From Candidatus Eiseniibacteriota bacterium (lineage in GTDB: Bacteria > Eisenbacteria > RBG-16-71-46 > CAIMUX01 > WJJG01), in assembly GCA_023129715.1 (NCBI GenBank), contig JAGMBO010000057.1:1-64000 (forward strand): DNA of 64,000 bases. Reading direction: 5' to 3'. The position numbers and the translations under genes were made by a program. Positions 35,346 to 54,162 of this stretch are shown here, piece after piece. The notes under the pieces were generated by a model. It had not been told where the DNA came from, did no database searches, and saw nothing but the letters and a program-made list of their open reading frames with translations. Within the stretch, counting starts at the first letter, position 1; each line of letters starts with the position of its first letter.

Positions 35346-35418
35346 GAGCCGCTAGCTCAGTCGGTAGAGCATCGGCCTTTTAAGCCGAGGGTCCTGGGTT
35401 CGATCCCCAGGCGGCTCA
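35346..35418 (+). tRNA. tRNA-Lys (anticodon TTT)
   Basis: The 73-nt tRNA has acceptor GAGCCGC paired with GCGGCTC and discriminator A, D-loop AGTCGGTAGA, anticodon stem TCGGC/GCCGA with loop CTTTTAA (anticodon TTT) and T-loop GGTTCGATCC. CCA is not encoded. Confidence 0.97.
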
Positions 35419-35533
35419 AGTCCGCTGGGGCCTGGGGGACGGCAAGGTCACGGGGTTGCTCCGCAAGTGGTCGAATTCCGCCCCGAATGGGCCCAAGGAC
35501 CTGAGATCAAAAGAGGTAATGAAGGTCACGGGG

Positions 35534-35560
35534 CGAGCCGAATCAGTCTGGGTCGGCTCG
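35534..35560 (+). other. hairpin after tRNA-Lys
   Basis: CGAGCCGA (35534-35541) pairs with TCGGCTCG (35553-35560) over 8 bp with an 11-nt loop. There is no T-run, so it is not a classical terminator. Confidence 0.5.
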
Positions 35561-35583
35561 GATGAGGCTGAGGAGGACCAAGA

Positions 35584-35613
35584 TTGACAGGAATTGAAGG
35601 GGCGTGGTAGGTT
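35584..35613 (+). promoter_or_regulatory. upstream promoter candidate of the giant surface-protein gene
   Basis: TTGACA (35584-35589) and TAGGTT (35608-35613) are separated by 18 bp. Transcription from here would give a leader of about 545 nt. Confidence 0.55.
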
Positions 35614-35714
35614 GTCGCAGCTGTTTTCAAGAGCGCGTCTTGGGCCATCTGCCGCGCGCAGAGAATCGGTGAGAGCCCTGGGGGGAATGCTGCCCCGGGG
35701 AGAATGTTTTTCGA

Positions 35715-35750
35715 TTGACAGGTTTTTCCGGCGCGGCAATAGTACCGCGC
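35715..35750 (+). promoter_or_regulatory. second promoter candidate with an inverted repeat around its -10 box
   Basis: TTGACA (35715-35720) and AATAGT (35738-35743) are separated by 17 bp. The -10 lies between the arms of a perfect inverted repeat, GCGCGG (35731-35736) and CCGCGC (35745-35750), which could be an operator. The leader would be about 415 nt. Confidence 0.4.
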
Positions 35751-36164
35751 AAATGGTAACCGCAACATACAAGTAGGGATTGTGAGCGAAACAAGGATGT
35801 TTCTGACGGAGAGTAGAGAGGGCGGCCGGCGAGAGACTCGCTCAAGGCCGGGCGCATCCTGCCGACCCTTTTTCAGAAGCACTTTCGGGGCTGGCGATCC
35901 CGCCATCTCCCTTTCCTGCCTTTCGCTGTCACCAGGTGGTAATGATCTCGTTCTCCACGGCTCACGGCCGGGGAGTGTTTCGCGCTGGACCGCGGGGACG
36001 AGGTTGGTTGGTCGGGCATGGTTGACCCGCCAATAGTGGGGAGTTTCCTAAGGAGGACGGCGGTGCTGATCACGAAGCAGTTGATCGGAAGCCCTACGAG
36101 GGTTCAATCGGCTCACCAAGGATTCCTTCGCGGTTCGCGGTCTCATGTGAAGGAGGGACAAGGC

Positions 36165-39100
36165 ATGAACTGGACAGGAAAGTCTTCTGTCTTCTTCGTC
36201 ACGGTTTTCGCTTTGGCAATTGCCGGGCTGTTCGCTGCGCCGGCGCAGGCCGAGGTGTTGGCCAGTGCGGCGGGGGATGAGGCAGCGTTCTTCTATTCCT
36301 CCTTCCCGATCGAGGGTGGCCCGCACATCATCGCGGCGACGTTCTGGGACGCCGAGTCAAACGATACGACGTATACCGGCGAGCAGGACTCGCTCTTCGT
36401 CGTCTTCAACGAGCCGGTCAACGTCGGCACGATCGCCATCGAGGACTTCGTCTTCCATGGCTTCGAGGCGGCGACCCTTGAGCGCATCGACGGCGTGACG
36501 GGGAAAATGGCGGTGCTCACCGACCTCGATTCCGAGATCCTGCCGGCGATCGATTCGGTGGGGGTCGTCTGGAGCTCCTTCCTCGGGACCGACGGCAGCG
36601 ACAACAAGGACGTCGGCATGGTGCCGGTGACCGAGGGGCCGGTGATCGTCGACATCACGTACCACGGCAATTGGGACGCCTCGAATGTCCACGATCCCAT
36701 CTTCGATCCCGACTCGATCACGGTGATCTTCGACCACCCGGTCACGATCGCCGATGCGACCGGCCTCTTCACCGGGACGCCCGAGTTCATCAATGACATC
36801 GACAACACCGCCTCGGGGCGCCTGATCGGGATCGCGCCCGCAGCCGCGGCCGACACGATGCTGCAGATCTATACGGGGATCTCGAAGCTCTGGCTCGCCG
36901 CCGGGGATGTCGAGTGGACCGCCGATGACGACCTGCAGAATGCGATGGCGCAGAAGGTCGCCTTCAACAACGACGGTCCCGTCCTGATGGCCGCCTACTA
37001 CAATGACGGGGGGACGGGCGCCACCGGCACGCAGGACGACGACGAGATCTGGCTGGTTTTCGACCAGCCGGTCCCGGCCGGGAGTCTCCAGGACGTCGAC
37101 GACCAGTATTCGATTTCCTGGCAGTCGGTCACGTACGTTTTCAGTCTGCTGGCCGAGCAGCGGCGCCAGCCGCAGGGGAACTTCTACTCCAACGTCATCG
37201 TGATCACCAATCCGGTGACCGCGGACGGTGATCCAGCGATTGACGCAGAGATGTATGTGGTGCCCGACTATGCCCACATCGACTACCAGGGCGTCGAGGG
37301 CCCGATGCGCATGTCGCGCTGCAAGGCGGGTGTCGGAATCAGCCGCGCGGCCTACTTCGACCGCGGCACCGACGACGCCGACAACGATCAGCTCCATCTC
37401 TGGTTCAGCCAGGAGCTCGCTCTGGCCGATGTCACGGCGCTCGACTTCGAGCTGGTTCCCGACGTACCCGACTTCTGGAGTGAGATCACCTTCCAGGTCG
37501 ACAACACCAACGGCTTCGGCCACGTGGTGGTGAGCGGGATCAACAACTCGACCGCGCTCGGCGGCGCCCGCCTCCCAAATGGCTACTACGTCAAGATTGC
37601 CACCGACACGAGCATCGAGGGCCTCGTCACCACGACGGACGGCTGCGACGGTGAATCGCTGATTCCGATCATGGACGACAGCGAGCCCGCGCGCGTGCGC
37701 CTCGCCGAGGTGCCCAGCCTGACGTACAAGCGCTACAACAGCGTGACCGACGCCGACACCGCCTTCATCGCCTGGCGCGAGACGGGGCTGGTCGACGACT
37801 CGGATCAGTACTTCGTCTTCTTCACCAATCAGCCGGGCACCGATCTCGATGATCTCTTCATCGATAACTACCGCCAGAGCGCGTTGGTGGCGTCGAACCT
37901 GACGCCGGTGACGGTCAACGGCAGTGTCATGAGCTGTGCGGTCGACATCGAGCAGGGCAACCCGACGACCGACGGACACGCGATCGTCCACGGCGACGAG
38001 CTGTACTTCATGCTCGTCCCGGCGACCTTCTGGGGTAACATGGCCGACGGGGATGAGGATGCGGTGCTGAAATTCACCACCCCGATCATTGCCGGCCCGG
38101 TTTGCCCGCCGCGCGACTTCGACGAGAACGACGACGACATCATCCATGTGACCGGGGTCTTTGCCCCGGCCGACACGAGCTGGACGCGCTCGATGTTTGG
38201 TGATGCCAACGCCTTGCCCTGCGGTACGCATGTCTTCATCTTCGACGGCGACGATCCCTTGGGCAGCAGCATCGAGCTGGGGACCGGTCCGGTCAATCCG
38301 AACGGCTCGTTCGACCCGGTCGTGCTCGGCGACCCGACGGTCGATCCCGACACCCTGCAGGCGTTCTTCGTCTTCGCCTGGCAGGAGGGGGCCTTCAGCG
38401 ACTCGTTCGCCGTGATCCTGAACGACATCGCCCTGCCGTCGATCGTCGACGGTTCGGTGATGGACCTGTTCAACCCCTACCAGATCTACAAGGGTGATGA
38501 TTACGTCAACATCATCATGCAGGCCGACGACGCCACCGGCGACCCGGCCTCGCCGACAACGGCCCTTAGTGACCTGCTCGAGGTCTGGGCCGACATGACC
38601 TTCATCGACAACCGCACGGCGTTGCCGACGTCGCTGGGGAGCTTCGAGCTCGACTCGATTCCGATGTGGTCGATGGGTTCCGACGAGATCGACAACGACG
38701 GCGACTGGGTCGCCCACGACCCCCTCATCGACCTTGATGACGACGGCGTGATGGACTTCCCCGAGCCCTTCTTCGATGAGAACGGCAACGGCTACTACAA
38801 TGCCGGGGAGACCTTCGTCGACCGGGATGGCGACGATCTCTGCGATGCGCCCCGCGACCCGCTCGAGACGCCTCCCGCAGGCAGCACCGACTACGACTTG
38901 AACCTCGACTCGGCGGACGAGGATGAGCACGGCTGGTACGAGATCCGCCTGCTCGCCTCGGGCGACGAAGACCTGTACAACGACGTCGTCAGGGGCTTCC
39001 AGGTCCTCGATACGGTCACCGACTCGACGGGCACGAGCAACTTCGGCGAGATCGATGATCTGCCGGCGCCCTTCGGCCTGCGCGACGTCTATATCGATGC

Positions 39101-42100
39101 GACCACCGAGCTCGACGAGCACACCACACCCTTCATCTGCGAGCTCGACGAGGTCGCCCCGACGGTCGCCAAGATCACCGAGTTCTACACCGCCGCCGCG
39201 TTCCTGACCGCGGCCGACCCGGCCGACAACGTGATCCTCCCGACCAATCCGGTCTATCACATGGGCCGCTACCTCGACGTGCTGATGGAGACCCACAGCG
39301 ACAACGACGTGCTCTTCTCGGTCGCCCAGATCAAGGAGAGCTCGAAGGCGACGTGGGAGCATCTCACGCTCGATCCGGCCGGCTGGAACGCCGATGCCGA
39401 CACCCCGGGTGTCGCCGGCTTCGACGACGACCGCGATGTCGCCTTGATGGGCTACGACACCGACGGCATCGACAACGACGACGACGGCGAGATCGACGAG
39501 CCCGGCGAGGGGATCGACTTCCAGGATCCGGAGGTCGTCGACGCCAGCCAGGACTCGACCGCCGACGCGAATGCGGTCAATCCCGACTTGATCTACCGGA
39601 CGACCGACCGGATCGACAATGACAACGACGCCTTCTACGTCTTCGAGCCCTATTGGGACGTGGGCGGGGGTGCGGTCTATCACCGCATCATCTGGTTCAA
39701 CATCGACGAGACGCGCAGCAACGACATCGACGACGACTTCGACGGCGTTCCCGACGACAACGGCGGCGGCGCCCTGGGCACGCCCGAGGACGAGACCTAC
39801 AGCGCGATCTCGGACGACAACGAGGACGGAATCGTCGATGCCGAGGCGATCGAGCTGATCGCCGACGGCGGGACCACGCAGCGCTTCTTCTGTGTCGCCG
39901 ACAGCGCCTACAGCGGTCCCTTCTACGTGGCCGCGCCCTATGTCCTCGGGGATGCCCCCGATGGGATGCCGAGTGACGTGATCAACGACATCCGCGGTCT
40001 GACCGACTTCCGCGGCCCGAGCTACGGCATCCTCGATGCAAATGGCGGGGCGATGATCGACCCGCCGGCCTTCCCCTGGGGTGACAGCACCACCGCGGCG
40101 GAGTTCAACTGGTACCTGCTGCACGGGGACGAGAACATCGACTTCTGGCACCTGGCGCAGATCATGTTCGGCACGGTTCCCGACGGCAGCGAGGAGTACG
40201 ACCTGCGCATCGCCGCCTATGACCAGGCGGGCAACGTGCAGTACTCCTACGCCGCTCCGATCACGTTCACCTCGGACGTGACCGACCCCGTCGTCCAGCT
40301 AGAGCAGTGTGCCGATGGCGACACGACGATCTGCGAGGACGCCCACCTCGACCTGACGACGACCGACGATGACGATGCGGTCAAGATCTTCTTCGAGGCG
40401 CGTTTCTCGACCGACGAAGGCACGACCTGGAGCGACTGGGGCGCCGACTGGGCGCATCAGGATGAGTCGCGGCCCTACACGGCGGCCTTCGACTCGCTCT
40501 TCGTGATCAGCAACGACCCGCCCGACGACTACGTGCTGGCGCAGTTCCGGGCCTACGGCGAGGATGAGTTCGGCAACGTCCAGGATCCCGACTCGACCTG
40601 TGTCTTCGAGGCGCGGATTGAGGACTGCCGCCCGCCGGTGACCTGGTTCACGCTGATCCACGAGACGATGAATACGCATCCCGCCGGTGATCACATGAAC
40701 ATCGGCGATACGGCCAATCCGTACTACTACCGCGACGTGATCGGCCCGCTGCAGGTCCCGGTCGGTGAGACGATCGATGTCTGGGCGCTCTTCGCCCCGG
40801 ACACGGGCATGGTGGCGACCTACGATCACGATGTCATCCGGGTGGTCCTCGAGTACCGGCCCGCCGGAGCCGGCGATTGGACGATGCTCGAGACGATCGA
40901 GGGTGATGTGATCGTCGACGAGGTCACCGGCGATACGCTCTCCGTCGACCTGACCCTGCCGGTCGCGGTGACGCTGAACACCGCTGCGCTCGAGACGGGC
41001 TCCTACGACCTGCGGGTCTGGGCCTGCGACATCGAGGGCAACTGCAATACGACGACCTATGATATCGCGATGATCACGGTGGTCGACGAGGGTCTGCGGG
41101 CCTACATCGAGCCCCCCTATCGTGAGAACCCGACCGATCCCTTCGAGCTCTACGCGCTCAACTGGATCCACGACTACGACCTCGAGGAGGTCGAGTTCGA
41201 GTTCTACGAGGACTTGAACGGCAATGGTGAGCCCGACGACGCCAAGACCGAGTGGGTCCACATCGCCACCGACATCGGCAGCGCCACCGACTTGCCCGGT
41301 TCGCGTGGTGACGTGACGCTCTATCGCGGCGCGGACATGATCTTCGATCTCGAGGAGGGCACGCCTGGCTTCCACGCCTTCCGCGGGTACACGGTCACCG
41401 GCGACAGCGCCGAGGCCTATATCGACTACGACGGGGACGGCTACAGCGAGCGCGACCCGATCATCCTCGATGCCGATGAGGACATGTGGTACACGCCGGG
41501 CAACGACATTGTCTTGCTGGGCGACGGTACCGAGATCCTGGGCGAGGGGCTGCTCGAGCTGACCGCCTTCGAGGACACCGAGTTCCGCACGGGCGACTTC
41601 CCGTTCGATGCGACGCAGTGGATCTTCCGCGAGAACCTCTCGCCGAACACTCCGGCGCAGGGCACCGGCATGCTCAACCTGTGGCATGTGCAGTGGGACG
41701 TGACCGGACTCGAGGGTGACTTCCTGGTGCGGGCCAAGGCGACCGACATCCTCTACAACATCGATGAGGATCGCCCCAACAAGCCGATTCCGTGGGAGAC
41801 GCTCTCGATCGATACCGAGCCGCCGGTAGCGACGATTACCGAGCTGACCTATCCCGACGCTTCCGCCGAGCCGGCGATCGACGGGATCTACATCAACGGT
41901 CAGACCGGCTGGTTCGGGATCCTGGCCGAGTGCTCAGATGCGGACGTCGAGCACGTCCAGATCGAGTTCCGGATTCCGGGGCATGCCGAGCTCGGGGACT
42001 GGACGCCGATGGACGTCAACGACGACAACGACTTCTACGCCGACATCGACGGGATCCCCGGCTTCTCCGACGAGGACGAGATCATCCTCGACGACGGAGA

Positions 42101-45100
42101 CTTCGTCTTCGACGAGAGCAAGGGTGATCTGGTGCTGTATAAGGGCGCCAACGGCGAGATCAACACGCCGGCCGGCACGCCACTGCTGCCGCTCTTCAAC
42201 GTCGATATCCCCGGCGCGCTCCTCTACTTGGTCGAAGAGGATGATAACGGCGACGATGACGACAACGATGGGATGACCGATGAGGACATCGACAATCCCG
42301 AGGATCGCATCGCGCCCTACTTCGTCTACATGCACATTGGTGCGCTGCACCTGATCAGCGACACCAACGTCGAGCTGCGGGCGGTGGCGACCGATCAGTC
42401 GGCCAACGCCGACCCGAACCCGGCTGTGCTGCAGCTGGTGCTCGGCGAGACCAACGCACCCGAGACCGACGTCGTCTGGGTGAAGATGGACGACGAACTC
42501 ATCGACGATGTGTTCCCGTCAATCTCCGACGGCGACGGGGTCTATCAGTTCGTGGGCGGTGACGACGAGATCACGGTGATGACCACGGGCGAGGATGCCA
42601 CGGCGATCGAGAACGTCGACCTGATGTGGCGCCGCGCACCCGAGTGCGTCACCCCGATGCTCTACGAGTGGGACAACCCCTGGCAGAGCATGGCGGACGG
42701 TGGCTACACGACGGCCAACACGAGCTACGACTATCCGTTCGACGTCAACCTGGCGCAGTTCCTGGCCGACAACGGCAGCGGCGTCTATGAGTTCTATGTC
42801 GAGGCGACCGACAACAACGGCAACGCCACGCCGCCCTACGAAAACCCGAACCGCTTCCGCTTGCTGGAGGACGAGGCCACGATCGTCACCGATCTGACCG
42901 ACGTCTGGGTCGAGCCGGCCCACGACGGCCTGCCGGGCAGCGAGCTCTGGTTCGAGGCGGAGGTTGTACCGGCCAACGAGGATGCCACGGTGGCGTTCCT
43001 CTACGCCGAACGCGTACTGGATGTGGAGATCGACCCGACGCGGGTCACGCCGCATCCGGAGCATGCGACCTACATGACGATGGATCTGGTGCCGGGGATC
43101 TTCGGAGATCCCGCGGATCATGCGGTCCTCACGATCGATGACGTCGAGTACACCTTCTACGAGGACGCTGATGCCCTGATCCTCAGCGGTGATGCCACCG
43201 GCTGGACCTACGATGCCGGTGACGATGTCGTCGAGTTCCTGGCGATTCCGGGGACCGAGGCCGAGATTCTGGTCAGCTACAACATCACCGGCTACGACTA
43301 TCTCTGGCAGACGCCGGACGCTGAGTCGACCGACGATGAGCCCGATGTGAGCGACGGCTACTACGCCGCCGCGTGGGATCAGCCCCACGGTGGCGTGCCC
43401 GAGCCGGATTCACCGTACACGGTGGCCTACGACATCATCGCGACCCTCTACGTCGGCGCACCCGGCGATGAGGACTGCGGGCTGATGGGCGAAGACGTTT
43501 CCGAGGGGCAGTATGTGATGCTGCTCGACGAGGAGGCGCCGCATATCACGCTCTTCGCCCAGGGGCTCCGCAACGCCGACCTGGACGCCTTCTGGCCCGG
43601 CAACCCCTCGTTCGATTCCTGGGAAGGCACCGACGAGGAGTGGGGCGGCGAGGAAGGCAGAATCGAGTGGAAGCTTTCGGGCATCGAGCACGAGTTCTTC
43701 GTCGCCGAGGGGCGTAAGGGGAAGGGCGAGGCCGATAGCGACATCCTCAACGTCAACCTCGTCTTCGAGGACGAGGCTGGTGTGGTGACCTCGCTGCCGA
43801 TGGAGGAGATCCCCGCGGACGCCGAGTATGTCGAGATGACCTTCACGCTCTATGAGTCCGACTTCCCCGAAGTGCTGTATGGATTCGAGAACGTGGGGCT
43901 GAACTTCAACGGCCTGATCCACGAGATGACCCCGACCGACGGTGTCTGGCAGGTGTCCAACGTGCCGGTGCCGACGGGGACGGTAACGAGCTACACCTTC
44001 ATGATCGACCAGGACGGCAACGACTGGGACGAGGAGGTGCTCGATCCGCGCAACTGGGAGGCCATGATCGACAAGTTCATGGTCAAGGGATCGATTACCC
44101 AGCCCGGCGCGGACAATGGGGTCTCCTCGATCAGCGTGCCCTTCCCGCCCTTCTGGTTCGTCAGTGGCCCGGACTTCGGGACCGTGACGTCGGTGTGGGA
44201 GGTCTATGCCGAGGCATTCGACGACGTGGGCAACCGCGGTGTCACCGAGATGAACGTCAAATTCGTCTATGACCCGGTTGCGCCGAGCGTCGACGAGGTC
44301 ACGGCCAGCAGCACGCGCTTCGGCGCGGGCGACACGGTGATGGTCTACGCGACGATTACCGACCCGCCGGCGGCCGACTTCGACGTGATCACCGTGGCCG
44401 AGGCCCTCTTCCAGTACTGTCCGAACTACACGGCGGTCAAGGCGGGTGAGGGTGATCCGGTCTGGCTCGAGTTCGGTGCCGCGATCGACACGAATCGTAC
44501 CGACGGTTGGTCGATGCAGGGCACGATTCCCGATCCGGAGATGGATGGCTTCGACAACGACGGTGACGGGACCTGGGATGAGGCCGACGAGTCGACCTCG
44601 ATGATGGCCTTCCGGGTGCTGGCCCTCGACGATGGGCACAACTACAGCGACCCGGCCGATGCCAATGGGATCCGCGAGTTCACGCTCGATGAGACCGAGC
44701 CGGCCGCCGTGCTGACCAGCCCCGGCGAGGGTTTGGTCTATCCCTACGGCTCGACCATCACCCTGACTGCGGAGATCACCGAGTACGAGGAGATCGCCAA
44801 GGGGACCGACATCCACCATGTCCTCTTCCAGTTCGACAAGGGCGACGGTTTCGAGAACGTCGACATCACGCCCGAGGATGGCTCGGACGCCGACTTCGAC
44901 GTGACCGAGCCCTACGAGGTGATGTTCAACACGGCCGACTACCTCGGCGAAGAGGATTCCTACATCCGCTTCCGCGCGGTGGCCGCCGACTATGCGGGCA
45001 ATGAGGATCACGACCCGGCTGAAGTCCTGGTGATCGTCAACGACATCACCGGACCAGAGGCCTATCCGATGTGGGCCAAGACGACCGGTGCCACGAGCTG

Positions 45101-48100
45101 GACGCCGCTGACGGATGCGCACGTGGCGCTCCATGGCCCCGAGGCGATGCTCAAGGGTGTGGTCGTCGATCCGGCCGGCTGGGAGCACATCGCAACGGTC
45201 ACGGTTCAGTACACGGCGCCGGCCAAGGAAGACTGGGTGACCATCGCGGTGATTCCCGCGGGCGATCTGACGCACGACGCCGGTGACCTCGACTTCTACG
45301 CCGAGTGGGAGACCGTGTGGGATACCCATCCGCTGCCGGAGGGGCTCTACACGATTCGGGCGATCGCGGCCGATGTCGACGCCAACGCCGATGAGGCGCC
45401 GTTGACTCAGGAGGTTGCGGTCGACCACACGCCCCCGGCGGTGCTCTACGAGCCGATCGCCGGCTACTACGACGGCTTCGCGCCCTGGGCCTGGTACTAC
45501 AACGACGGTGTCGTCGACCAGCAGTCGATGGTGCTGACGCCCGATCCGGCGACCGGAGATCTCGCCTTCATGGTGATCACTCCGGATGCCGACATTGCGG
45601 GCATCACGCTCGAGTGGCACCAGGACGGGACGCACGCGCTCGGCGAGTGGGCGCCGTTCGCGATGGATATGTTCGACTACGAGCCGAACCTGACCTTCGA
45701 CGCGGCCAAGACGACCTACTACGTCTGGTGGCTGCCGCTGGACAACTTCCGTGACCACTGCGAGCTGGTGGGCATCAGCGGGGTCATGGACATCCGCGGG
45801 CTGGCGACCGACTATGCCGGCAATGCCAATATCCTCTATGACGCCAACAACCTGTGGAAGATCTGGACCGTCGACGTCGACGATCCGACCGCCTTCGACT
45901 TCAACCATGATCTGACCAACCCGGATGAGCCGCAGGTTGAGTCGGGTGAGCCGGTCACCTTCGAGTTCGTGCTGGCCGACACCACGACCGACGTCGTCAC
46001 CGTGCGCCTCGAGTATCGCGAGGCGCCGGAGGTCGGAGTTCCTCCCGATTGGGAGGTGATCGATCCGAATCCGGCGACCGAGGAGATCGAGCCGATCGAG
46101 CTCACGGTTGTGGATCTGGACACGCCCTATGCCATGTGGCACGGCACGGCGACGTGGGAGACGCCCTATCCGCTGGTGCAGGATACTGATTACGACGTGC
46201 GGGTCGTCTTCTATGACAGCGCGCACAACTGGGATACGAGTGAGCTCACGATCACCGTCGAGGACAACATCAAGCCGGTGTACACGAAGATCTGGGCGGT
46301 TCCGGCCGAGGTCACCTGGCTCGACGACTGGTACGCCGGCACCAACGACATGATCTACGGGACCGACTGTGAGAGCGAGATCGAGAAGCAGGGCACCGGT
46401 GGCCACGATGCGTTGTTCATCGACATGGATGACGACGGCGACTACACGCCGGGTGACGTGGCGATCGATTACGGTGCCTTCTACTACGGGGCCAGCTACG
46501 CGCTCAACGGCCAGCCGTTTGTCGATGGCTGGGGCACGATCGGCGATCCGGGCTTCACCTGGCCGCGCTACATCGATGAAATCGTCCTCGGGGGCGAGCT
46601 CGGTGAGCAGGTCATGGTTTCGCACACGGTGACCCTGGTCGCGCGCACGCAGATCGACGACATCGGCCTGGAGCGGGTCGAGTTCTACGCGATCACTCCG
46701 GCCGGAGATACGCTCCTCGTCGACACCGACGAGTGCGTCCCGGCCTATGGAATGGGCAACTACCTGTGGCACGTGATCTGGGACACCAAGGATCTGGATG
46801 ACTATGGCGAGCCGCTCTATCCCGACGGGGTCTACACGATCGTGCCGATCGCCTATGACCTCGAGGGGAACGTCGAGGAGTGGGGCGCCAAGGATATGTC
46901 CGGCCATGCCGTGGTGACGGTGGACAACACCGCCCCGCAGGCGACGCCGGACGCGGATCCCTACACCGAAGGCGTGCAGCCGAGCATCACGGTCGAGCGC
47001 AACTCGTTCATGACGCTGTTCGCCACGACCGACGTGGACGGCATCGCCGACGACGAGGTCACCTTCTACTACAAGCGGGCGACCGATCTGAACCGCCCCG
47101 ACGCGTGGACGATGGTCCAGAACGCCTGGGGCGTCGATGCCAGTGACGTCAATCCAGACAAGACGCGGCCGTACGTCTTCGACTGGGACTTCGACATGAT
47201 GGACGTCCCGTTCCCGCTGGTCGATCCGGTCGTGGGTGTCGACTACCACGTCGCCTGCGACGCGGCTGATCTGCTCGTGAACACCGAAGACAAGACCGAT
47301 GCCTTCGAGGATGACCGCTACATCACCTTCACGGTCGTCGACACGAAGGCGCCGGTGGCGACGATCACCGGAGTGCGTCGTGCCACGGGCGACAACAGGT
47401 TGATCCAGATGCCCCATCTGGACAGCCCCGTCCACGCGCGCGACTTCTGGTACCTGATGGCCGAGATTCTGGAAGGCGACAACGACGTCGAGCGGGTGGA
47501 GTTCATGTGGGCCCTGCCGGGCGAGGCGCCGCAGCTAATCGATGCGGACGTCACCCGGGATCCCGAGAATCTCCACACGTGGCGGATCTACGACTGGGAT
47601 CTGCGGGCGTTGGCCGGACAGACGATCGAGGTCTTCGCGGTGGCGACCGACGACGTCGGCCACACGGACTTCGATAGCGAGACCGGACGGCCGATTCAGG
47701 GACCGATCTTCACGGTCTTCGTCGACTTCGACGCGCCGACGATTACGATGGTCACGCCGTGGGACGACATGAAGGAGTGTCGGTCCAATTGGGAGACCGA
47801 CGACGACATCTATGAGCTGATCTTCACCTCCACGGCAACCGACATCGACGAAGAGTCGGTTGTCTGGGAGTGGAAATTCTCGGGTGACCCGGATCTCGAG
47901 GAGAACTGGACAGTCTGCTACGACTCCGGCAATGCCGTCTTCGACGCCAGCACCGGAACGTTCGCGGATGTCTGGGACATCGACGACGACTGTCTCGAGA
48001 GCAACTTCTACGATGTCCGGCTGACCCTGTATGACGATGCCGGGAACATGTACCAGGCGATCGTGGCCGTGCGGATCGTGATCGATGTCGATGACCCCTG

Positions 48101-51100
48101 GGGCGAGGTCACCCGCGTGGTGGTCAACGAGGTCGACTACTTCCCGACGCAGGTCATCGAGATCACCCTGGGTGATGTGATCACCCTCTGGGCGACCGCC
48201 GATGACATCGAGGAGGGATTGCCCGGTTTCGGCACGGGTGTGGAGGAGATCCTCTTCCAGGCCCAGTACGCCACCGGCAAGAGTACTTCCGGCGAGTGGC
48301 GGGATGTGGGCCTGTGGCAGGCACCGGACGACACCATCTACGAGCACGTCGTCACCAGCGTCGACTGGAACACGAGCGGGCTCTCCGAGGGGTACTACCA
48401 CGCGCGCATCGTCATCCACGACGAGGAGTGCAACGAGTACACTAGTGCCGCGGTCGATCTGCAGATCCTCGATCGGCAGCCGCCGCGGGCGCGGATCGCC
48501 GGCTGGGATCCCTGCGAGCTGCCTCACGGGGACGATCCCCCGGTCTACTGCGACGTCTATGCGATCGCCTACTGTGACGATGCGATGGATGAGGTGCAGT
48601 TCCAGTACAGTGAGGATGCCGGCGAGACCTGGGTGCCCTTCGGGCTTTCCGATGACGACGCGAACAACATGCCGACGGAGCTCTGCGACATCTGGAGCTC
48701 CCGGCTCGAGCTGGGCAGCTTCGAGGTCGGCGACGAGTTGCTGCTGCGAGCGATCGCCAGGGACTGCGACATGAATCAGGATCCGAACCCGCCGGTGGCG
48801 GCGGTGAAGGTCTATGAGCACCCGGACGGCTCGCTCGACCTGGTCCCGATCGAGAACGAGGCCTGTGACGAGATCTCCGAGCCGACCCTGAGCGTGGTCG
48901 GCGGTGAGTGTCCGACGCAGATGATCGTGACCGTTCAGACCAACGACGCGAGTGTGAAGCCGCATGTGCTCTACGTCCACCCGGACACCTGGGACTGGAA
49001 CTACGACCCGATCGGCTACTGCAGCAATGCTAGCTGCATCTACATGGAGAGGATGATCGACGATCCGACGATCTGGCGAGGTGTGCTCGATCTGCCGGTG
49101 GAGGACTGCGGCAAGATCACCGTCTTCGCCAATGCTCTCGGTGAGTGCGAGCAGATCGACATCCACAGCACCTATGTCTGGTCGCGCTACATCACCAACG
49201 CCTTGGGGACGAACGGCGTCCACTGGGTGCCGGGGTACGTGGCGGCCGACACATCGTTCTACTATCTGAATGCGTCGGCCTACGTCCCGAGCGGCAGTGG
49301 TGTCGAGGCGTGCCTCTTGCTGGCGCCGGGCACCGACGCGCCCACGTTGAGCGCTGACCAGGCGCGGTTCATGACGATGCTGGAACGCACGAACTACTAC
49401 ATGAACCCGATCGCCGGCGATAACGACATCGACTTCAACGACGGCTACTACCTGAGCGCGACCATCGACTATGACGACGCGGCGCTGATCGAGGCCGCGG
49501 GTAGTGAAGAGCGCGCTGCGGCGATCGAGCCCTACCTGACCGTGCGTCTCTACGACACGGCGCATGAGGACTTCGGCCACTGGGAGGGCACCGACATCAC
49601 GCACATCACCGTCGATGCCCAGGCCAACCGGGTCAGCTTCATGACCAACGAGCTGGAGTGCGCGGATGCCTTCTATGCACTCTTCGCACCGACCTGGGAT
49701 GCTCCGGTGGCGGTGCTGAGTTTCACGCCGGATAGCCCCTATCCGGGCCGGTGGAACTACACCGATCGGGACCCGATCATCATCGCCGACCTCAACACGA
49801 CCGGTATCGAGGAGATCGACTCCACGACGGTGGAGATCTGGATCGGCAAGGATGGTGAGCAGCAGCAGCTGGTCGCCGCCTGGATGCCGGACGGTGGCGA
49901 TCCCGACAATGATCCTGACCACTGGGCACGGGGCGACGGCGAGTTGGTGATCCGCCAGAAGAACCTCGACGGCACGATGTTCGAGGTGACCTACTACCAC
50001 ACGACGCAGCAGCCCTGGTGGCTGGAGCACGGGTGGCACACGCTGAACATCATGTACAAGACGGATGACGGAGTGGACGAGTGGGTCGAGCTGCCGGCGG
50101 GTGCGCCGGGCGCGCGGTTCTTCGTCGACGCCGATCCGCCGATCGTCGAGTTCCATGGCGGCTGGACGGATAATCCGGTTCTGCACAACGTTTCGGGCTA
50201 CCTGAATCCGGCGCAGATGGAGAACATGCTGACCGTTTACTTCTACGATGACGACGCCGGCCTGCTGGTGCGCCCGACCGACATCGAGTGCGACGACTGC
50301 GAGGAGTGCGATTGCAACCTGCGCGGCATCAAGTACGACCTCTGGTTGGTCCACGACGAGGACGACCAGGTCGAGATCGATGAGATCGAAGAGCGGCTGC
50401 TGCTGCACAGCGGCACCGCCGACGAGCTCATCCCCTACATGATCCCGCCGTATCACACGCCGAGCGAGGTCGACACGCTCGAGGGCAACTACTACACGCC
50501 CGATGACACGCTGATCGCCGGCCTGCCGATCATGGCGGGTGGGGTGACCCACGACATCGGCGACGGGGATGTCATCGAGGTGGTCATCTACAGCAAGAAG
50601 CGGATCGAGCAGTATGGGGACTACACGGAGGGCTGCGAGGGCGGCTTGATCATCGTACCTAACACGGACGGCGTTCAGGACACCCTCGGTACCTTCTGGC
50701 TCGACTGCTACGTGGACCACAACTCGCGCATGCACATCTACGAGCAGGGTGTGCTCGACTGGGCGGGCAACGCGGGCTCCGAGTACGTGGAGCAGCGCTT
50801 CATCGTCGACATGACGGCGCCCACCGTCGAGCTGATCTCGCCGGCCGGGGGCTTCACCGAGCCGAGTGAGAGCTTCTGCTTCGAGGCCCAGCTCGTCGAC
50901 GCCGGCTCGGGCGGCGCGACCGCCGAGGTGGTGATGATGGGTCCTGATGGTGCGGAGATCGAGATCACCGATTTCGAGATTGCCGGTGACATCATCAGTG
51001 GTTGTGTTGAGGGTGGTCTCGACATGGGCCGCTACTCCCTCGTGGTGACGGCTGCGGACATGACCGGCAACACCGCCGTCGTGTCGGTGCCGATCATCGT

Positions 51101-51422
51101 GGAGAGTAGGACGCTGGCTATGAGCGAGACCTACATCTATCCGAACCCGGTCAACCCGGATGACTACGAGGCGATCATCCACTTCAACCTGAGCCGCCAT
51201 GCCGAGATCACGGCGAAGGTCTACGACTTCGCGGGTGAGTACGTGACGACGATTGCCAGCCACGAGCCCTATGCCGCCGGCGTGTGGAGCGACCTGCGGT
51301 GGGCCGGGCAGGCGTCGGATGGAACGGAGCTCGCCAACGGGGCGTACCTGATCCGGCTCGAGGCGTTCGACGGCTCGGCGCGCAAGGCGGCGACGATCAA
51401 GGCGGTCATCTGGAGAGAGTAG
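36165..51422 (+). CDS. giant exported multi-Ig-domain surface protein with FlgD-type C-terminal domain
   Basis: The ATG at 36165 follows AGGAGGG and opens with a clear signal peptide (cleavage likely after AAPAQA, residue 29), giving 5,085 residues. An in-frame start at 36018 would destroy the signal peptide. Five N-terminal repeats start near residues 51, 158, 271, 391 and 520, four of them about 107-120 apart, with patterns such as DSLFVVFNEPV and DEIWLVFDQPV, like SbsA/Big_5 Ig modules. Asp-rich calcium-type loops occur near 840-900 and 1098-1190 (DNDGD, DDDGVMD). About 19 further modules carry an AxDxxGN-like signature (RAVAADYAGNED, FAVATDDVGHTD) and linkers of the type DTxxPVATI. The last 100 residues (from about 4986, YIYPNPVNP to LANGAYLIRLEA) form a FlgD Ig-like domain of the kind found at C-termini of exported FCB proteins. 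No enzyme domain is recognised. A role as adhesin, stalk or surface-layer component is inference. Confidence 0.9.
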   Translation: MNWTGKSSVFFVTVFALAIAGLFAAPAQAEVLASAAGDEAAFFYSSFPIEGGPHIIAATFWDAESNDTTYTGEQDSLFVVFNEPVNVGTIAIEDFVFHGFEAATLERIDGVTGKMAVLTDLDSEILPAIDSVGVVWSSFLGTDGSDNKDVGMVPVTEGPVIVDITYHGNWDASNVHDPIFDPDSITVIFDHPVTIADATGLFTGTPEFINDIDNTASGRLIGIAPAAAADTMLQIYTGISKLWLAAGDVEWTADDDLQNAMAQKVAFNNDGPVLMAAYYNDGGTGATGTQDDDEIWLVFDQPVPAGSLQDVDDQYSISWQSVTYVFSLLAEQRRQPQGNFYSNVIVITNPVTADGDPAIDAEMYVVPDYAHIDYQGVEGPMRMSRCKAGVGISRAAYFDRGTDDADNDQLHLWFSQELALADVTALDFELVPDVPDFWSEITFQVDNTNGFGHVVVSGINNSTALGGARLPNGYYVKIATDTSIEGLVTTTDGCDGESLIPIMDDSEPARVRLAEVPSLTYKRYNSVTDADTAFIAWRETGLVDDSDQYFVFFTNQPGTDLDDLFIDNYRQSALVASNLTPVTVNGSVMSCAVDIEQGNPTTDGHAIVHGDELYFMLVPATFWGNMADGDEDAVLKFTTPIIAGPVCPPRDFDENDDDIIHVTGVFAPADTSWTRSMFGDANALPCGTHVFIFDGDDPLGSSIELGTGPVNPNGSFDPVVLGDPTVDPDTLQAFFVFAWQEGAFSDSFAVILNDIALPSIVDGSVMDLFNPYQIYKGDDYVNIIMQADDATGDPASPTTALSDLLEVWADMTFIDNRTALPTSLGSFELDSIPMWSMGSDEIDNDGDWVAHDPLIDLDDDGVMDFPEPFFDENGNGYYNAGETFVDRDGDDLCDAPRDPLETPPAGSTDYDLNLDSADEDEHGWYEIRLLASGDEDLYNDVVRGFQVLDTVTDSTGTSNFGEIDDLPAPFGLRDVYIDATTELDEHTTPFICELDEVAPTVAKITEFYTAAAFLTAADPADNVILPTNPVYHMGRYLDVLMETHSDNDVLFSVAQIKESSKATWEHLTLDPAGWNADADTPGVAGFDDDRDVALMGYDTDGIDNDDDGEIDEPGEGIDFQDPEVVDASQDSTADANAVNPDLIYRTTDRIDNDNDAFYVFEPYWDVGGGAVYHRIIWFNIDETRSNDIDDDFDGVPDDNGGGALGTPEDETYSAISDDNEDGIVDAEAIELIADGGTTQRFFCVADSAYSGPFYVAAPYVLGDAPDGMPSDVINDIRGLTDFRGPSYGILDANGGAMIDPPAFPWGDSTTAAEFNWYLLHGDENIDFWHLAQIMFGTVPDGSEEYDLRIAAYDQAGNVQYSYAAPITFTSDVTDPVVQLEQCADGDTTICEDAHLDLTTTDDDDAVKIFFEARFSTDEGTTWSDWGADWAHQDESRPYTAAFDSLFVISNDPPDDYVLAQFRAYGEDEFGNVQDPDSTCVFEARIEDCRPPVTWFTLIHETMNTHPAGDHMNIGDTANPYYYRDVIGPLQVPVGETIDVWALFAPDTGMVATYDHDVIRVVLEYRPAGAGDWTMLETIEGDVIVDEVTGDTLSVDLTLPVAVTLNTAALETGSYDLRVWACDIEGNCNTTTYDIAMITVVDEGLRAYIEPPYRENPTDPFELYALNWIHDYDLEEVEFEFYEDLNGNGEPDDAKTEWVHIATDIGSATDLPGSRGDVTLYRGADMIFDLEEGTPGFHAFRGYTVTGDSAEAYIDYDGDGYSERDPIILDADEDMWYTPGNDIVLLGDGTEILGEGLLELTAFEDTEFRTGDFPFDATQWIFRENLSPNTPAQGTGMLNLWHVQWDVTGLEGDFLVRAKATDILYNIDEDRPNKPIPWETLSIDTEPPVATITELTYPDASAEPAIDGIYINGQTGWFGILAECSDADVEHVQIEFRIPGHAELGDWTPMDVNDDNDFYADIDGIPGFSDEDEIILDDGDFVFDESKGDLVLYKGANGEINTPAGTPLLPLFNVDIPGALLYLVEEDDNGDDDDNDGMTDEDIDNPEDRIAPYFVYMHIGALHLISDTNVELRAVATDQSANADPNPAVLQLVLGETNAPETDVVWVKMDDELIDDVFPSISDGDGVYQFVGGDDEITVMTTGEDATAIENVDLMWRRAPECVTPMLYEWDNPWQSMADGGYTTANTSYDYPFDVNLAQFLADNGSGVYEFYVEATDNNGNATPPYENPNRFRLLEDEATIVTDLTDVWVEPAHDGLPGSELWFEAEVVPANEDATVAFLYAERVLDVEIDPTRVTPHPEHATYMTMDLVPGIFGDPADHAVLTIDDVEYTFYEDADALILSGDATGWTYDAGDDVVEFLAIPGTEAEILVSYNITGYDYLWQTPDAESTDDEPDVSDGYYAAAWDQPHGGVPEPDSPYTVAYDIIATLYVGAPGDEDCGLMGEDVSEGQYVMLLDEEAPHITLFAQGLRNADLDAFWPGNPSFDSWEGTDEEWGGEEGRIEWKLSGIEHEFFVAEGRKGKGEADSDILNVNLVFEDEAGVVTSLPMEEIPADAEYVEMTFTLYESDFPEVLYGFENVGLNFNGLIHEMTPTDGVWQVSNVPVPTGTVTSYTFMIDQDGNDWDEEVLDPRNWEAMIDKFMVKGSITQPGADNGVSSISVPFPPFWFVSGPDFGTVTSVWEVYAEAFDDVGNRGVTEMNVKFVYDPVAPSVDEVTASSTRFGAGDTVMVYATITDPPAADFDVITVAEALFQYCPNYTAVKAGEGDPVWLEFGAAIDTNRTDGWSMQGTIPDPEMDGFDNDGDGTWDEADESTSMMAFRVLALDDGHNYSDPADANGIREFTLDETEPAAVLTSPGEGLVYPYGSTITLTAEITEYEEIAKGTDIHHVLFQFDKGDGFENVDITPEDGSDADFDVTEPYEVMFNTADYLGEEDSYIRFRAVAADYAGNEDHDPAEVLVIVNDITGPEAYPMWAKTTGATSWTPLTDAHVALHGPEAMLKGVVVDPAGWEHIATVTVQYTAPAKEDWVTIAVIPAGDLTHDAGDLDFYAEWETVWDTHPLPEGLYTIRAIAADVDANADEAPLTQEVAVDHTPPAVLYEPIAGYYDGFAPWAWYYNDGVVDQQSMVLTPDPATGDLAFMVITPDADIAGITLEWHQDGTHALGEWAPFAMDMFDYEPNLTFDAAKTTYYVWWLPLDNFRDHCELVGISGVMDIRGLATDYAGNANILYDANNLWKIWTVDVDDPTAFDFNHDLTNPDEPQVESGEPVTFEFVLADTTTDVVTVRLEYREAPEVGVPPDWEVIDPNPATEEIEPIELTVVDLDTPYAMWHGTATWETPYPLVQDTDYDVRVVFYDSAHNWDTSELTITVEDNIKPVYTKIWAVPAEVTWLDDWYAGTNDMIYGTDCESEIEKQGTGGHDALFIDMDDDGDYTPGDVAIDYGAFYYGASYALNGQPFVDGWGTIGDPGFTWPRYIDEIVLGGELGEQVMVSHTVTLVARTQIDDIGLERVEFYAITPAGDTLLVDTDECVPAYGMGNYLWHVIWDTKDLDDYGEPLYPDGVYTIVPIAYDLEGNVEEWGAKDMSGHAVVTVDNTAPQATPDADPYTEGVQPSITVERNSFMTLFATTDVDGIADDEVTFYYKRATDLNRPDAWTMVQNAWGVDASDVNPDKTRPYVFDWDFDMMDVPFPLVDPVVGVDYHVACDAADLLVNTEDKTDAFEDDRYITFTVVDTKAPVATITGVRRATGDNRLIQMPHLDSPVHARDFWYLMAEILEGDNDVERVEFMWALPGEAPQLIDADVTRDPENLHTWRIYDWDLRALAGQTIEVFAVATDDVGHTDFDSETGRPIQGPIFTVFVDFDAPTITMVTPWDDMKECRSNWETDDDIYELIFTSTATDIDEESVVWEWKFSGDPDLEENWTVCYDSGNAVFDASTGTFADVWDIDDDCLESNFYDVRLTLYDDAGNMYQAIVAVRIVIDVDDPWGEVTRVVVNEVDYFPTQVIEITLGDVITLWATADDIEEGLPGFGTGVEEILFQAQYATGKSTSGEWRDVGLWQAPDDTIYEHVVTSVDWNTSGLSEGYYHARIVIHDEECNEYTSAAVDLQILDRQPPRARIAGWDPCELPHGDDPPVYCDVYAIAYCDDAMDEVQFQYSEDAGETWVPFGLSDDDANNMPTELCDIWSSRLELGSFEVGDELLLRAIARDCDMNQDPNPPVAAVKVYEHPDGSLDLVPIENEACDEISEPTLSVVGGECPTQMIVTVQTNDASVKPHVLYVHPDTWDWNYDPIGYCSNASCIYMERMIDDPTIWRGVLDLPVEDCGKITVFANALGECEQIDIHSTYVWSRYITNALGTNGVHWVPGYVAADTSFYYLNASAYVPSGSGVEACLLLAPGTDAPTLSADQARFMTMLERTNYYMNPIAGDNDIDFNDGYYLSATIDYDDAALIEAAGSEERAAAIEPYLTVRLYDTAHEDFGHWEGTDITHITVDAQANRVSFMTNELECADAFYALFAPTWDAPVAVLSFTPDSPYPGRWNYTDRDPIIIADLNTTGIEEIDSTTVEIWIGKDGEQQQLVAAWMPDGGDPDNDPDHWARGDGELVIRQKNLDGTMFEVTYYHTTQQPWWLEHGWHTLNIMYKTDDGVDEWVELPAGAPGARFFVDADPPIVEFHGGWTDNPVLHNVSGYLNPAQMENMLTVYFYDDDAGLLVRPTDIECDDCEECDCNLRGIKYDLWLVHDEDDQVEIDEIEERLLLHSGTADELIPYMIPPYHTPSEVDTLEGNYYTPDDTLIAGLPIMAGGVTHDIGDGDVIEVVIYSKKRIEQYGDYTEGCEGGLIIVPNTDGVQDTLGTFWLDCYVDHNSRMHIYEQGVLDWAGNAGSEYVEQRFIVDMTAPTVELISPAGGFTEPSESFCFEAQLVDAGSGGATAEVVMMGPDGAEIEITDFEIAGDIISGCVEGGLDMGRYSLVVTAADMTGNTAVVSVPIIVESRTLAMSETYIYPNPVNPDDYEAIIHFNLSRHAEITAKVYDFAGEYVTTIASHEPYAAGVWSDLRWAGQASDGTELANGAYLIRLEAFDGSARKAATIKAVIWRE

Positions 51423-51430
51423 CCATTGAC

Positions 51431-51462
51431 GGCGGGGCCCGCCCGCAAGGACGGGTCCCGCT
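51431..51462 (+). other. GC-rich hairpin between the giant gene and the PorV/OmpA gene
   Basis: GCGGGGCCCG (51432-51441) pairs with CGGGTCCCGC (51452-51461) with one G-U pair and a 10-nt loop. It starts 9 nt after the giant gene's stop. The following sequence (TGATTGAAG) is not a T-run, so it may act as a partial terminator or a 3'-end stabiliser. Confidence 0.6.
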
Positions 51463-51535
51463 GATTGAAGTCTCGTCTGAAGAGACGGCCGGTTCGTGGT
51501 ACAGACCATTCGGGTTCACAGAAGGAGGTACGACG

Positions 51536-53164
51536 ATGTTGAGAAGGAGTAGGGGGGTCATGACATGGGCTCTGCTCCTCGTCCTGGGGCTCTTCCTGGT
51601 CCCGCCCGGGGTCGCATTTGCCGGTGCTGACAACGAAGACTCCAGCAATCATGCGATTCCCTTCATGCGGATGGGTGTCGGCACCCGCGCACTGGGGATG
51701 GGAGGGGCCTACGTCGCCGCGGGCAGCGATGCGACCGTCGGCTACTGGAACCCGGGTGCCCTGGGCTGGTCCTGTGGAACGCAGGTCTCGGCCATGTATG
51801 CGCTCGGCATGTCCGACGACCGCAACATGAGCTACCTGGGTGCGTCCCATCACACGGGGTGGGGAGCGCTTGGGCTAAGCCTGCTGACGGCGGGGATGAA
51901 GGACATCGAGCAGCGAGATACCCAGGGAGCGTTTCTTGGGGATTTCGACTATTCGGATCTTGCGGTCATGCTGCATGGCGCCTATGCCATGGACTACGTC
52001 ACCTTCGGCGCGACGATCAAGTACCTGCATCAGGGTCTTGACGCGGACGTTGCCGGCGATGACGGCGTCGACGGCTATGGCTTCGACTTCGGAATCGGGA
52101 TCCAGCCGCTCGAGTGGGTGCGCTTCGGTGTGGCCCTGCGCGATGTGGCGACCGAGATCGGCGGGGACGAGGATGCCAACGTCGCGCCGATGAACCTGCG
52201 GGGCGGTTTTGCGCTGATGCCGCTCCAGGGCTTCACGTTCGCGCTCGACTTTGATCATGTCGAGGACGAGGACGACCTGAAGTTCCATGCGGGCACCGAG
52301 TACGCCTTCCCGATGGGCGAGGACTTCGGTGGTGCGCTGCGCCTCGGGTTGAACGACGGAGCCCTGACCGCGGGCGTTGGCGTGGCGGTGAGGTTCGTTG
52401 AGTTCAACTATGCGTTCATCGAGGAGCCGCAGGACTTCATGGACGAGAGCCATCGGGTCGGCGTGACCCTGCGCTTCGGTGAGGACTGCGAGGGCTTCGA
52501 CTACGAGCCGCGCATGAAGGACAGCGACCTCGACGGCATCCCCGACAAGATGGACGCCTGTCCGCACGCGGCCGAAGACTTCGACGGCTTCGAGGATCAG
52601 GACGGTTGTCCCGACGTCGACAACGACGGCGACGGGATACCCGACGTCGACGACGATTGTCCCGGCCGGGCGGAGGATTTCGACGGCTTCCAGGACATGG
52701 ACGGCTGCCCCGACATTGACAACGATGGCGACGGCATCCTGGACAGGGACGACAAGTGCCCGAACGCGGCCGAGACGTTCAACCGTTTCGAGGACACCGA
52801 TGGTTGCCCGGACGAGGCGCCGATCGAGTTCCCGATGTTGAACATCAACTTCAAGTTCAACAGCGCCGAATTCATGGGCACCGACCCGATCCCTGCGCTG
52901 GAGCGGATCGCCGAGGTTCTTAGAGAGAGCCCCGATGTGCGCGTGCGCATCGAGGGGCACACCGACAGCGTCGGCGGCGAGGAGTACAACACGGGTCTGT
53001 CGCTGCGGCGTGCGGAGGCCGTGAGGGACTACCTGGTCGAGAAGGGCATCGGCGCCGAGCGTCTGATGGCCGAGGGTTTGGGTGAGGGACACCCGGTTGC
53101 GAGCAACGACAGCGAGCAGGGTCGCTATCGCAACCGGCGGATCGAGTTCAAGGTCCTCGACTAG
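51536..53164 (+). CDS. outer-membrane protein: PorV-like barrel, TSP3 repeats and OmpA domain
   Basis: The 542-residue protein has a signal peptide (cleavage likely after GVAFA, residue 29). A PorV/UPF0164-like barrel follows (about 40-320), opening with MGVGTRALGMGGAYVAAGSD and YWNPGAL. Three thrombospondin type-3 calcium repeats come next (about 325-427; DSDLDGIPDKMDACP, DNDGDGIPDVDDDCP, DNDGDGILDRDDKCP). The OmpA-like peptidoglycan-binding domain (about 435-540) contains GHTDSVGGEEYN and LSLRRAEAV. The ATG at 51536 has the very strong RBS GAAGGAGGT. It lies 113 nt after the giant gene and is probably co-expressed. It should sit in the outer membrane, tethered to the cell wall; an anchoring or export role for the giant protein is inference. 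Confidence 0.92.
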   Translation: MLRRSRGVMTWALLLVLGLFLVPPGVAFAGADNEDSSNHAIPFMRMGVGTRALGMGGAYVAAGSDATVGYWNPGALGWSCGTQVSAMYALGMSDDRNMSYLGASHHTGWGALGLSLLTAGMKDIEQRDTQGAFLGDFDYSDLAVMLHGAYAMDYVTFGATIKYLHQGLDADVAGDDGVDGYGFDFGIGIQPLEWVRFGVALRDVATEIGGDEDANVAPMNLRGGFALMPLQGFTFALDFDHVEDEDDLKFHAGTEYAFPMGEDFGGALRLGLNDGALTAGVGVAVRFVEFNYAFIEEPQDFMDESHRVGVTLRFGEDCEGFDYEPRMKDSDLDGIPDKMDACPHAAEDFDGFEDQDGCPDVDNDGDGIPDVDDDCPGRAEDFDGFQDMDGCPDIDNDGDGILDRDDKCPNAAETFNRFEDTDGCPDEAPIEFPMLNINFKFNSAEFMGTDPIPALERIAEVLRESPDVRVRIEGHTDSVGGEEYNTGLSLRRAEAVRDYLVEKGIGAERLMAEGLGEGHPVASNDSEQGRYRNRRIEFKVLD

Positions 53165-53256
53165 GGACTTACGAGTAGGGCTGGCCGGTCCCGGGAAGGG
53201 GGCCGCGGGCGCTATGGGTCAAGATTCCAGGTCGTACCTCCTGGAAGAGCGACTGA

Positions 53257-53293
53257 CGGGGTGTGTGGCGTTGTCCACACACCCCGCTTTTTC
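53257..53293 (+). terminator. strong intrinsic terminator after the surface-protein pair
   Basis: A perfect 12-bp stem (CGGGGTGTGTGG at 53257-53268 with CCACACACCCCG at 53275-53286) has a 6-nt loop and is followed by CTTTTTCG. It closes the giant-protein/PorV-OmpA unit. Confidence 0.93.
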
Positions 53294-53368
53294 GTTGGAG
53301 GAAAGGGGCGAACGGGCGCGGGTGGGCCGGGGAGCTGGGGCAAAGAAGGGCCGGATGGGGGTCGGGAG

Positions 53369-53432
53369 CGAGGCAGAGGGGCGGGATGAGCGGCTGAGAA
53401 CGAGGCAGAGGGGCGGGATGGGCGGCTGAGAG
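53369..53432. repeat. 32-bp tandem duplication
   Basis: Two contiguous 32-bp copies (53369-53400 and 53401-53432), each starting CGAGGCAGAGGGGCGGGATG, differ at two positions. They lie in the purine-rich leader of the DUF2007-like gene. Confidence 0.85.
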
Positions 53433-53448
53433 TGAGGGAGGGGGAAGC

Positions 53449-53835
53449 ATGAACGGAGGGAGTGACGAGGGGGGGCGGGAACAGGGGCGGGGGACCGGTG
53501 CGGGAGAGTACGAGTGGGTCGATCTCTATCCGGTGTATGCGGCGCAGGACGAAACGGCAGCGATTCATGTGCGCAGCCTGCTCGTCTCGGCGGGGATCGA
53601 TGCGCGGATCCGCTCGGCCCAGGTGCCCTGGCTCGACGGGATCATGGCGAGCGGCCTCGGGTACTGGGGGCAGGTGCTGGTGCCGCGCGGGGAGGTGCTG
53701 GCGGCGCGGGCGTTGCTGGAGGATCTCGAGGCCCAGACGGAGACGAAGGGGGGGGAGGAGCTGGAGGGGCCTGAGGGGCGCGAGGGGCCTGAAGGGCCTG
53801 AAGGGCCTGAAGGGCGGGAACGAGAGGGGAAGTAG
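53449..53835 (+). CDS. DUF2007-like protein with a collagen-like tail
   Basis: The 128-residue protein has a core (about 22-95: DLYPVYAAQDETAAIHVRSL, LLVSAGIDARI, GQVLVPRGEVLAARALLED) that matches the small DUF2007 family, called putative signal-transducing proteins; their function is unknown. The last 25 residues are Gly-Pro-Glu repeats (GPEGREGPEGPEGPEGRE) encoded by tandem GGCCTGAAG units. A purine-rich RBS (GGGAGGGGGAAGC) precedes the ATG. It stands alone between a terminator and the riboflavin operon. Confidence 0.75.
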   Translation: MNGGSDEGGREQGRGTGAGEYEWVDLYPVYAAQDETAAIHVRSLLVSAGIDARIRSAQVPWLDGIMASGLGYWGQVLVPRGEVLAARALLEDLEAQTETKGGEELEGPEGREGPEGPEGPEGREREGK

Positions 53836-53852
53836 GGGGGCAGGTTGGCGAC

Positions 53853-53881
53853 TGGACAGCCGCGGCGGGAGAGTGCATACT
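53853..53881 (+). promoter_or_regulatory. promoter of the riboflavin operon
   Basis: TGGACA (53853-53858) and CATACT (53876-53881) are separated by 17 bp. The predicted start is just upstream of the FMN riboswitch. Confidence 0.45.
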
Positions 53882-53905
53882 AGTCTCCTTGTGAACGACG
53901 ATAGA

Positions 53906-54143: not shown

Positions 54144-54162
54144 TGTTGCCTGGAGGCCTCGG

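Follow-up and report, generated by a model that had tools for sequence, protein, structure and literature searches.

A giant Ig-like repeat protein with a T9SS-type tail and an adjoining PorV-OmpA gene at a conserved locus in Eisenbacteria

The locus and its genes

The window, a stretch of 64,000 nucleotides (positions 1 to 64,000 of contig JAGMBO010000057.1, assembly GCA_023129715.1), comes from the 4.83 Mb draft genome, 96% complete, of a Candidatus Eiseniibacteriota bacterium. It harbors a gene for a giant putative surface protein of 5085 residues (36165-51422, + strand), directly followed on the same strand by a gene for a 542-residue protein (51536-53164) that combines a PorV-family barrel, thrombospondin-3 (TSP3) repeats and an OmpA peptidoglycan-binding domain, hereafter PorV-OmpA. 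The open reading frame of the giant opens at 36018 and ends at 51422, with the actual start codon, an ATG, at 36165; it is directly preceded by AAGGAGGG and is conserved in orthologs. Residue numbers refer to the open reading frame, in which this methionine is residue 50; the N-terminal module starts given in an earlier sequence-only reading, counted from that methionine (51, 158, 271, 391 and 520), correspond to residues 100, 207, 320, 440 and 569.

From its N-terminus onwards, the giant protein, all of whose features lie on the + strand, comprises a likely Sec signal peptide read off the sequence (MNWTGKSS..AQA/E, 36165-36251), with hydrophobic N-termini in the orthologs as well; an N-block of five modules (residues 100-699, 36315-38114); an Asp-rich region (residues 885-945, 38670-38852) containing the EF-hand-like loop DENGNGYYNAGE; a C-block of Ig-like modules with AxDxxGN and xDxxxP signatures (residues 1325-4262, 39990-48803); a non-repeat region that is conserved in orthologs and matches no family (residues 4270-4930, 48825-50807); a last Ig-like module (residues 4933-5026, 50814-51095); and a C-terminal sorting domain of the FlgD_ig/T9SS CTD type (51105-51419), which ends in KAVIWRE. 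The chain is acidic, with a pI of 4.05. The sequence-only reading had placed the end of the repeat protein at 51119, about 300 bases too early, and its description, sound as to the repeat architecture itself, lacked the non-repeat region, the sorting tail (residues 5030-5134) and the partner gene.

Upstream lies a gene for tRNA-Lys (35346-35418, + strand), a conserved neighbor together with clpX, lon and purA. The approximately 745 bases between the tRNA and the start of the giant gene (35419-36164) hold one sigma-70-like site at 35715-35743, and the stretch is a possible long leader. Between lon and purA, a short imperfect tandem repeat with a period of about 23 occupies positions 33808-33964. 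Downstream of porV-ompA, a minus-strand open frame without Pfam match (53212-54735) may be the shadow of an opposite-strand gene; similar stretches are found at about the same location in loci L030, L035 and L040.

Two blocks of unrelated modules

The two-block architecture proposed from the sequence was borne out by profile comparison, in which overlapping window pairs were disregarded: the N-block and the C-block have no mutual similarity, and the region 4270-4930 is part of neither. Within the N-block, HHalign comparisons of ortholog profiles identified N1 and N3 (97%) and N1 and N4 (96%) as homologous, while N2 (49%) and N5 (38%) are weakly related to the other modules, so that the five related modules initially described reduce to three clear homologs and two weak ones. 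The GPxI-type starts attributed to them do occur, with GPx[IVL] exactly at residues 101, 207 and 320, and since only three such motifs are present against 4.7 expected from shuffled sequences, the motif is meaningful by its position rather than by its number.

In the C-block, the AxDxxGN signature occurs eight times against 0.15 expected from shuffles, and a looser form 16 times against 2.4, in agreement with the first description. The linker, which had been written as DxxPPV, barely exceeds chance in that form (DxxPP, six vs. 2.3 expected), and the linker proper reads [VIL]Dx[TED]xP (13 vs. 2.2). An iterated hidden Markov model trained within the protein retrieved 18 C-block modules, one at 4933-5026 and the other 17 in 1325-4261. 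To avoid the circularity of this training, a leave-one-out procedure was used, in which the model that scored a module was derived from all the remaining ones; 15-16 of the 18 clearly outscored shuffled and reversed controls, while those at 2637-2747 and 2772-2883 did not exceed the controls distinctly. Most C-block modules are linked to each other in profile comparisons with ortholog alignments, and three further stretches are module-like by the same approach, 1425-1550 (95%), 1700-1810 (87%) and 1940-2040 (81%). The initial estimate of about 19 modules is thus matched by a count of 18, and up to 21. Chance, whether for the open frame or for the repeats, was ruled out by the shuffles, the leave-one-out scores and the orthologs.

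The Ig-like nature of the modules is supported by several lines of evidence, as had been anticipated. The Pfam family Big_3_3 is matched above its cut-off in the window protein (31 bits, cut-off 27), and an ortholog matches both Big_3_3 (48 bits) and Big_13 (38 bits). Structure models were built from four-sequence alignments and are weak overall (pLDDT 36 and 52). The model of residues 4020-5134, with a mean pLDDT of 52, is all-beta, its first two modules reaching about 60-84 and its tail about 50-77, and its Foldseek matches include titin, fibronectin tandems, the BIg domains of SiiE (2yn3) and PorU. The top whole-chain matches, such as alpha-2-macroglobulins, align over 1,000 residues at a TM score of about 0.1 and signal tandem beta-sandwiches only. 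The N-block model (pLDDT 36) is too poor to judge, and its Foldseek list is uninformative. Pfam and NCBIfam profile searches matched no enzyme family in the giant protein, in line with the lack of a visible enzymatic part in the sequence-only reading.

Conserved aspartates and putative calcium sites

The Asp of the AxDxxGN signature is identical in seven of seven orthologs in 17 of the 18 modules, the remaining one being Asp/Glu. By comparison, 21% of all Asp residues of the C-block are identical in the seven orthologs (hypergeometric probability 6e-11 for the AxDxxGN Asp, the orthologs not being independent of each other). The linker Asp that precedes most modules is likewise invariant. In the adhesin SiiE, a linker Asp and several domain Asp residues form the type I calcium site that joins neighboring domains and confers rigidity (PMC5466336), and the AxDxxGN Asp looks like a residue of the same kind of inter-domain site. 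Its invariance, a sequence-level argument, is the most specific support for the proposed stiffening of the chain by calcium.

Two EF-hand-like loops were also found. The first, DENGNGxxxxGE at residue 920, is kept in six of seven orthologs and lies between the blocks, where Asp-rich loops had been noted; the second, DNDGDGxxDExD at residue 2846, the first Asp of which is present in seven of seven orthologs, is inside the C-block.

A module number held constant

Orthologs of approximately 5,000-6,300 residues with a PorV-OmpA neighbor are present in five families, that of the source genome included. The giant is encoded in one copy per genome, as determined with an N-block search, and the gene order clpX-lon-purA-tRNA-Lys-giant-porV/ompA recurs as far as the contigs extend, G008 alone having no lon at this place. 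The source genome consists of 186 draft contigs, which might raise the suspicion of an assembly artefact or a chance open frame; this explanation is refuted, and its probability is negligible, as six full-length giants from independent assemblies can be aligned with the window protein over its whole length, at 30-55% identity, and synteny is conserved.

No DNA-level tandem repeats were found within the giant gene, and the best self-matches of the protein have 25-42% identity over short stretches only, which indicates that the repeats are ancient. The orthologs in G002 and G004 are devoid of insertions or deletions of 45 residues or more relative to the window protein. Those of G006 and G007 carry insertions of 57-74 residues inside modules, near residues 1596 and 2942, and that of G009 has longer insertions at these sites, plus two VWA domains, while that of G012 has one VWA domain and several N-terminal inserts. 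The VWA domains (L033 of G009; L035/L042 of G012) are inserted at three different sites and harbor a D-x-S-x-S-type motif. No extra or missing Ig-like module was identified in the full-length orthologs at 34-55% identity, the insertions being judged by inspection. The repeats must therefore predate the diversification of the order, their number having been held since. Repeated duplication, by which the filament was proposed to have been built, thus applies to the distant past and not to later times, and the comparison of repeat number between relatives that was suggested as a check revealed no variation, distant orthologs gaining VWA domains instead. Recent tandem duplication was ruled out by the lack of DNA repeats and of module gain or loss in the closer orthologs.

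A module number that is constant over an order, at a fixed locus, in an acidic Ig-like chain, might also befit a structural surface layer, a sheath or a matrix strut instead of a ligand-binding adhesin, the fixed length serving as a spacer or a ruler. The Foldseek likeness to the S-layer protein Sap, and weakly to SbsC, is in keeping with this idea. Nevertheless, the VWA insertions of distant orthologs point to binding, and there is one copy per genome, making such a structural role rather unlikely. From its T9SS-like tail and from the adjoining barrel-anchor fusion gene, the protein can be read as a probable surface fibre, sticky and very long, with a number of beads that is fixed across a bacterial order.

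The C-terminal tail and the secretion machinery

The last 105 residues (5030-5134) match the profile of the PorU CTD (E=2e-12) and that of PorZ (3e-6). FlgD_ig reaches 26.8 bits in the window tail, 0.2 bits below the Pfam cut-off of 27, and exceeds it in an ortholog (50.5 bits). Searches against the PDB retrieved FlgD and PorU by sequence, PorU 6za2 being matched both by sequence (E=6.5e-4) and by fold (5e-6). The NCBIfam model of the type A sorting domain, TIGR04183, scored 14.8 bits, short of its cut-off of 23, and no type B CTD model was present among the NCBIfam matches of the tail up to E=0.1. In the K-x-V-x-W-R-E ending, K, V, W, R and E are invariant in five of five aligned orthologs, and every ortholog read to its end closes with V-x-W-R-(E/D). 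The conserved beta-7 lysine described for T9SS CTDs (PMC11285876), in the last strand of the type A domain, is present in the giant tail. The C-terminus thus resembles a sorting domain of the FlgD_ig/T9SS type, closer to type A and PorU than to type B.

The T9SS is known from Bacteroidota and is suspected in some other FCB phyla (PMC4793230; PMC11285876). No report of Eisenbacteria with a T9SS was found in the literature consulted, and they are absent from the T9SS lists in the same two articles. The source genome nevertheless encodes the SprA translocon (492.5 bits, cut-off 200), the PorU sortase (484 bits, cut-off 420) and six PorV-family proteins over the cut-off, five of whose genes lie apart from the giant locus, together with at least 150 FlgD_ig tails. 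One PorV-family gene adjoins that of the PorU sortase (G000:C133:26462-31148). The GldL/GldM motor gave no match in 13 + 5 genomes, other SprA-bearing ones included, which does not establish its absence, as no control genome matched either. No type I exporter was found among the scanned neighbor genes, a subset of the genes of the genome.

The PorV-OmpA partner

The tail and the partner gene together indicate how the giant may be exported and held. The PorV-family domain of the partner (51650-52477, + strand) matches NF033709, the PorV/PorQ family, with 100.8 bits, and 102.7 bits in a second search (cut-off 90); the barrel is of the PorV and not of the PorP family according to NCBIfam. PorE binds peptidoglycan through Asp, Asn and Arg (PMC7192894), and these three contact residues are found at the spacing of PorE in the OmpA domain of the partner (52850-53137, + strand) and of eight orthologs. 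The porV-ompA gene is immediately behind the giant gene in the source genome (G000) and in G002, G004, G005, G006, G007, G008, G009 and G012, while in G003 the two are on separate contigs. No other genome of the class yielded a single match covering both the PorV and the OmpA parts, the contig-end fragments of G001 and G010 being excluded.

Between the stop codon of the giant and the start of porV-ompA lies a strong RNA hairpin (51430-51463, + strand; -29.5 kcal/mol, z -2.6), whose outer stem has 12 bp and which lacks a U-tract. At the corresponding position, a hairpin of 12-14 bp (z -3.5 to -5.5), also without a U-run, is present in five orthologous loci, so that the feature occurs at one position in six species. 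The hairpins were folded one by one, as their sequences are not conserved and an alignment is useless, and no Rfam match was found. The hairpin may set the ratio of the giant and PorV-OmpA products.

In Bacteroidota, the tails of type A cargos are cleaved by PorU, and the chains are released or attached to lipid. The same fate might await the giant, with PorV-OmpA acting as a general shuttle for many cargos, as PorU is present in the genome along with numerous other tails. It is hard, however, to reconcile a general shuttle with a gene directly behind that of the giant wherever a contig spans both, and with the other PorV-family genes elsewhere in the genome, and this scenario has a low probability. 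More improbable still is an SprB-like role in motility, with the giant as an adhesin that a gliding machine moves over the surface. The comparable size of the giant (SprB has 669 kDa), its T9SS-type tail and the cognate outer-membrane barrel encoded next to it, an arrangement known from sprB-sprF (PMC9143113), would fit. Yet the tail is nearer to type A and PorU than to type B, the neighbor is not of the PorP family, the GldL/GldM components were not detected (in a search devoid of a positive control), and an OmpA anchor suits a protein that stays in place better than one that moves.

A proposed mode of action

The reading preferred here, with rather more confidence than doubt, is that the giant is a very long, calcium-stiffened and mostly rigid adhesin fibre of the cell surface, exported by a T9SS-like route and held by a dedicated PorV-OmpA carrier and anchor. 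The protein would enter the periplasm by means of its putative Sec signal peptide. Its Ig-like C-terminal sorting domain would then be recognized, and the chain would pass through the SprA translocon and the PorV route, the components of which are encoded in the genome. Folding would take place outside, where calcium bound between the Ig-like modules, as suggested by the invariant Asp residues, would stiffen the chain. At the outer membrane, PorV-OmpA may capture the tail and pin it to the peptidoglycan through its OmpA domain, as the pairing of the genes and the contact residues suggest. Ligands are probably bound by the N-block and, in distant orthologs, by the inserted VWA domains.

A broader proposal is more tentative. 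Eisenbacteria might possess a T9SS-like export that operates without a recognizable Bacteroidota motor, in which one PorV-OmpA protein receives a calcium-stiffened giant of fixed length and locks it to the wall, acting as a fused PorP-PorE with a single cargo. A putative adhesin of about 5,000 residues at one locus across a whole order, with a fused carrier-anchor, makes the surface holding of such cargos testable by way of two genes, and it exemplifies a giant protein in which the number of repeats is stable.

Comparison with known systems

Among large adhesins, SiiE of Salmonella, a BIg chain of about 595 kDa, resembles the giant by the Foldseek match to 2yn3 and by its calcium sites between domains, to which a linker Asp and domain Asp residues contribute (PMC5466336) and to which the putative sites of the giant would correspond. 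It differs in its 53 domains and in its secretion by a type I system, whereas the Eisenbacteria protein combines modules of two types with a T9SS-type tail. The Giant1-5 proteins of Apilactobacillus kunkeei likewise belong to the very large surface proteins of bacteria and have a set locus, but the host is Gram-positive and the export route is another one (PMC12863079).

Other parallels exist within the T9SS. SprB is bound by the barrel SprF encoded by the neighboring gene, while PorP binds PorE, which in turn binds peptidoglycan (PMC9143113; PMC7192894). PorP-PorE of Porphyromonas gingivalis shares with the PorV-OmpA protein a tail-binding barrel and a peptidoglycan-binding OmpA_C domain (PMC9143113; PMC7192894), but the two functions are carried by two proteins there and by a single fused one here, and PorE contains TPR, propeller and CRD domains in addition. 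In Flavobacterium johnsoniae, SprB/SprF similarly consists of a giant, repetitive, T9SS-exported protein with its own outer-membrane barrel gene adjacent (PMC9143113), and PorV and PorP-like barrels are both of the FadL-like kind. In contrast, the tail of the Eisenbacteria giant is FlgD_ig/type A-like, and its barrel, of the PorV family, forms one fused protein with TSP3 repeats and a peptidoglycan-binding OmpA domain. The giant and PorV-OmpA are thus best read as a pair that would work like SprB/SprF plus PorE, yet without being members of that pair.
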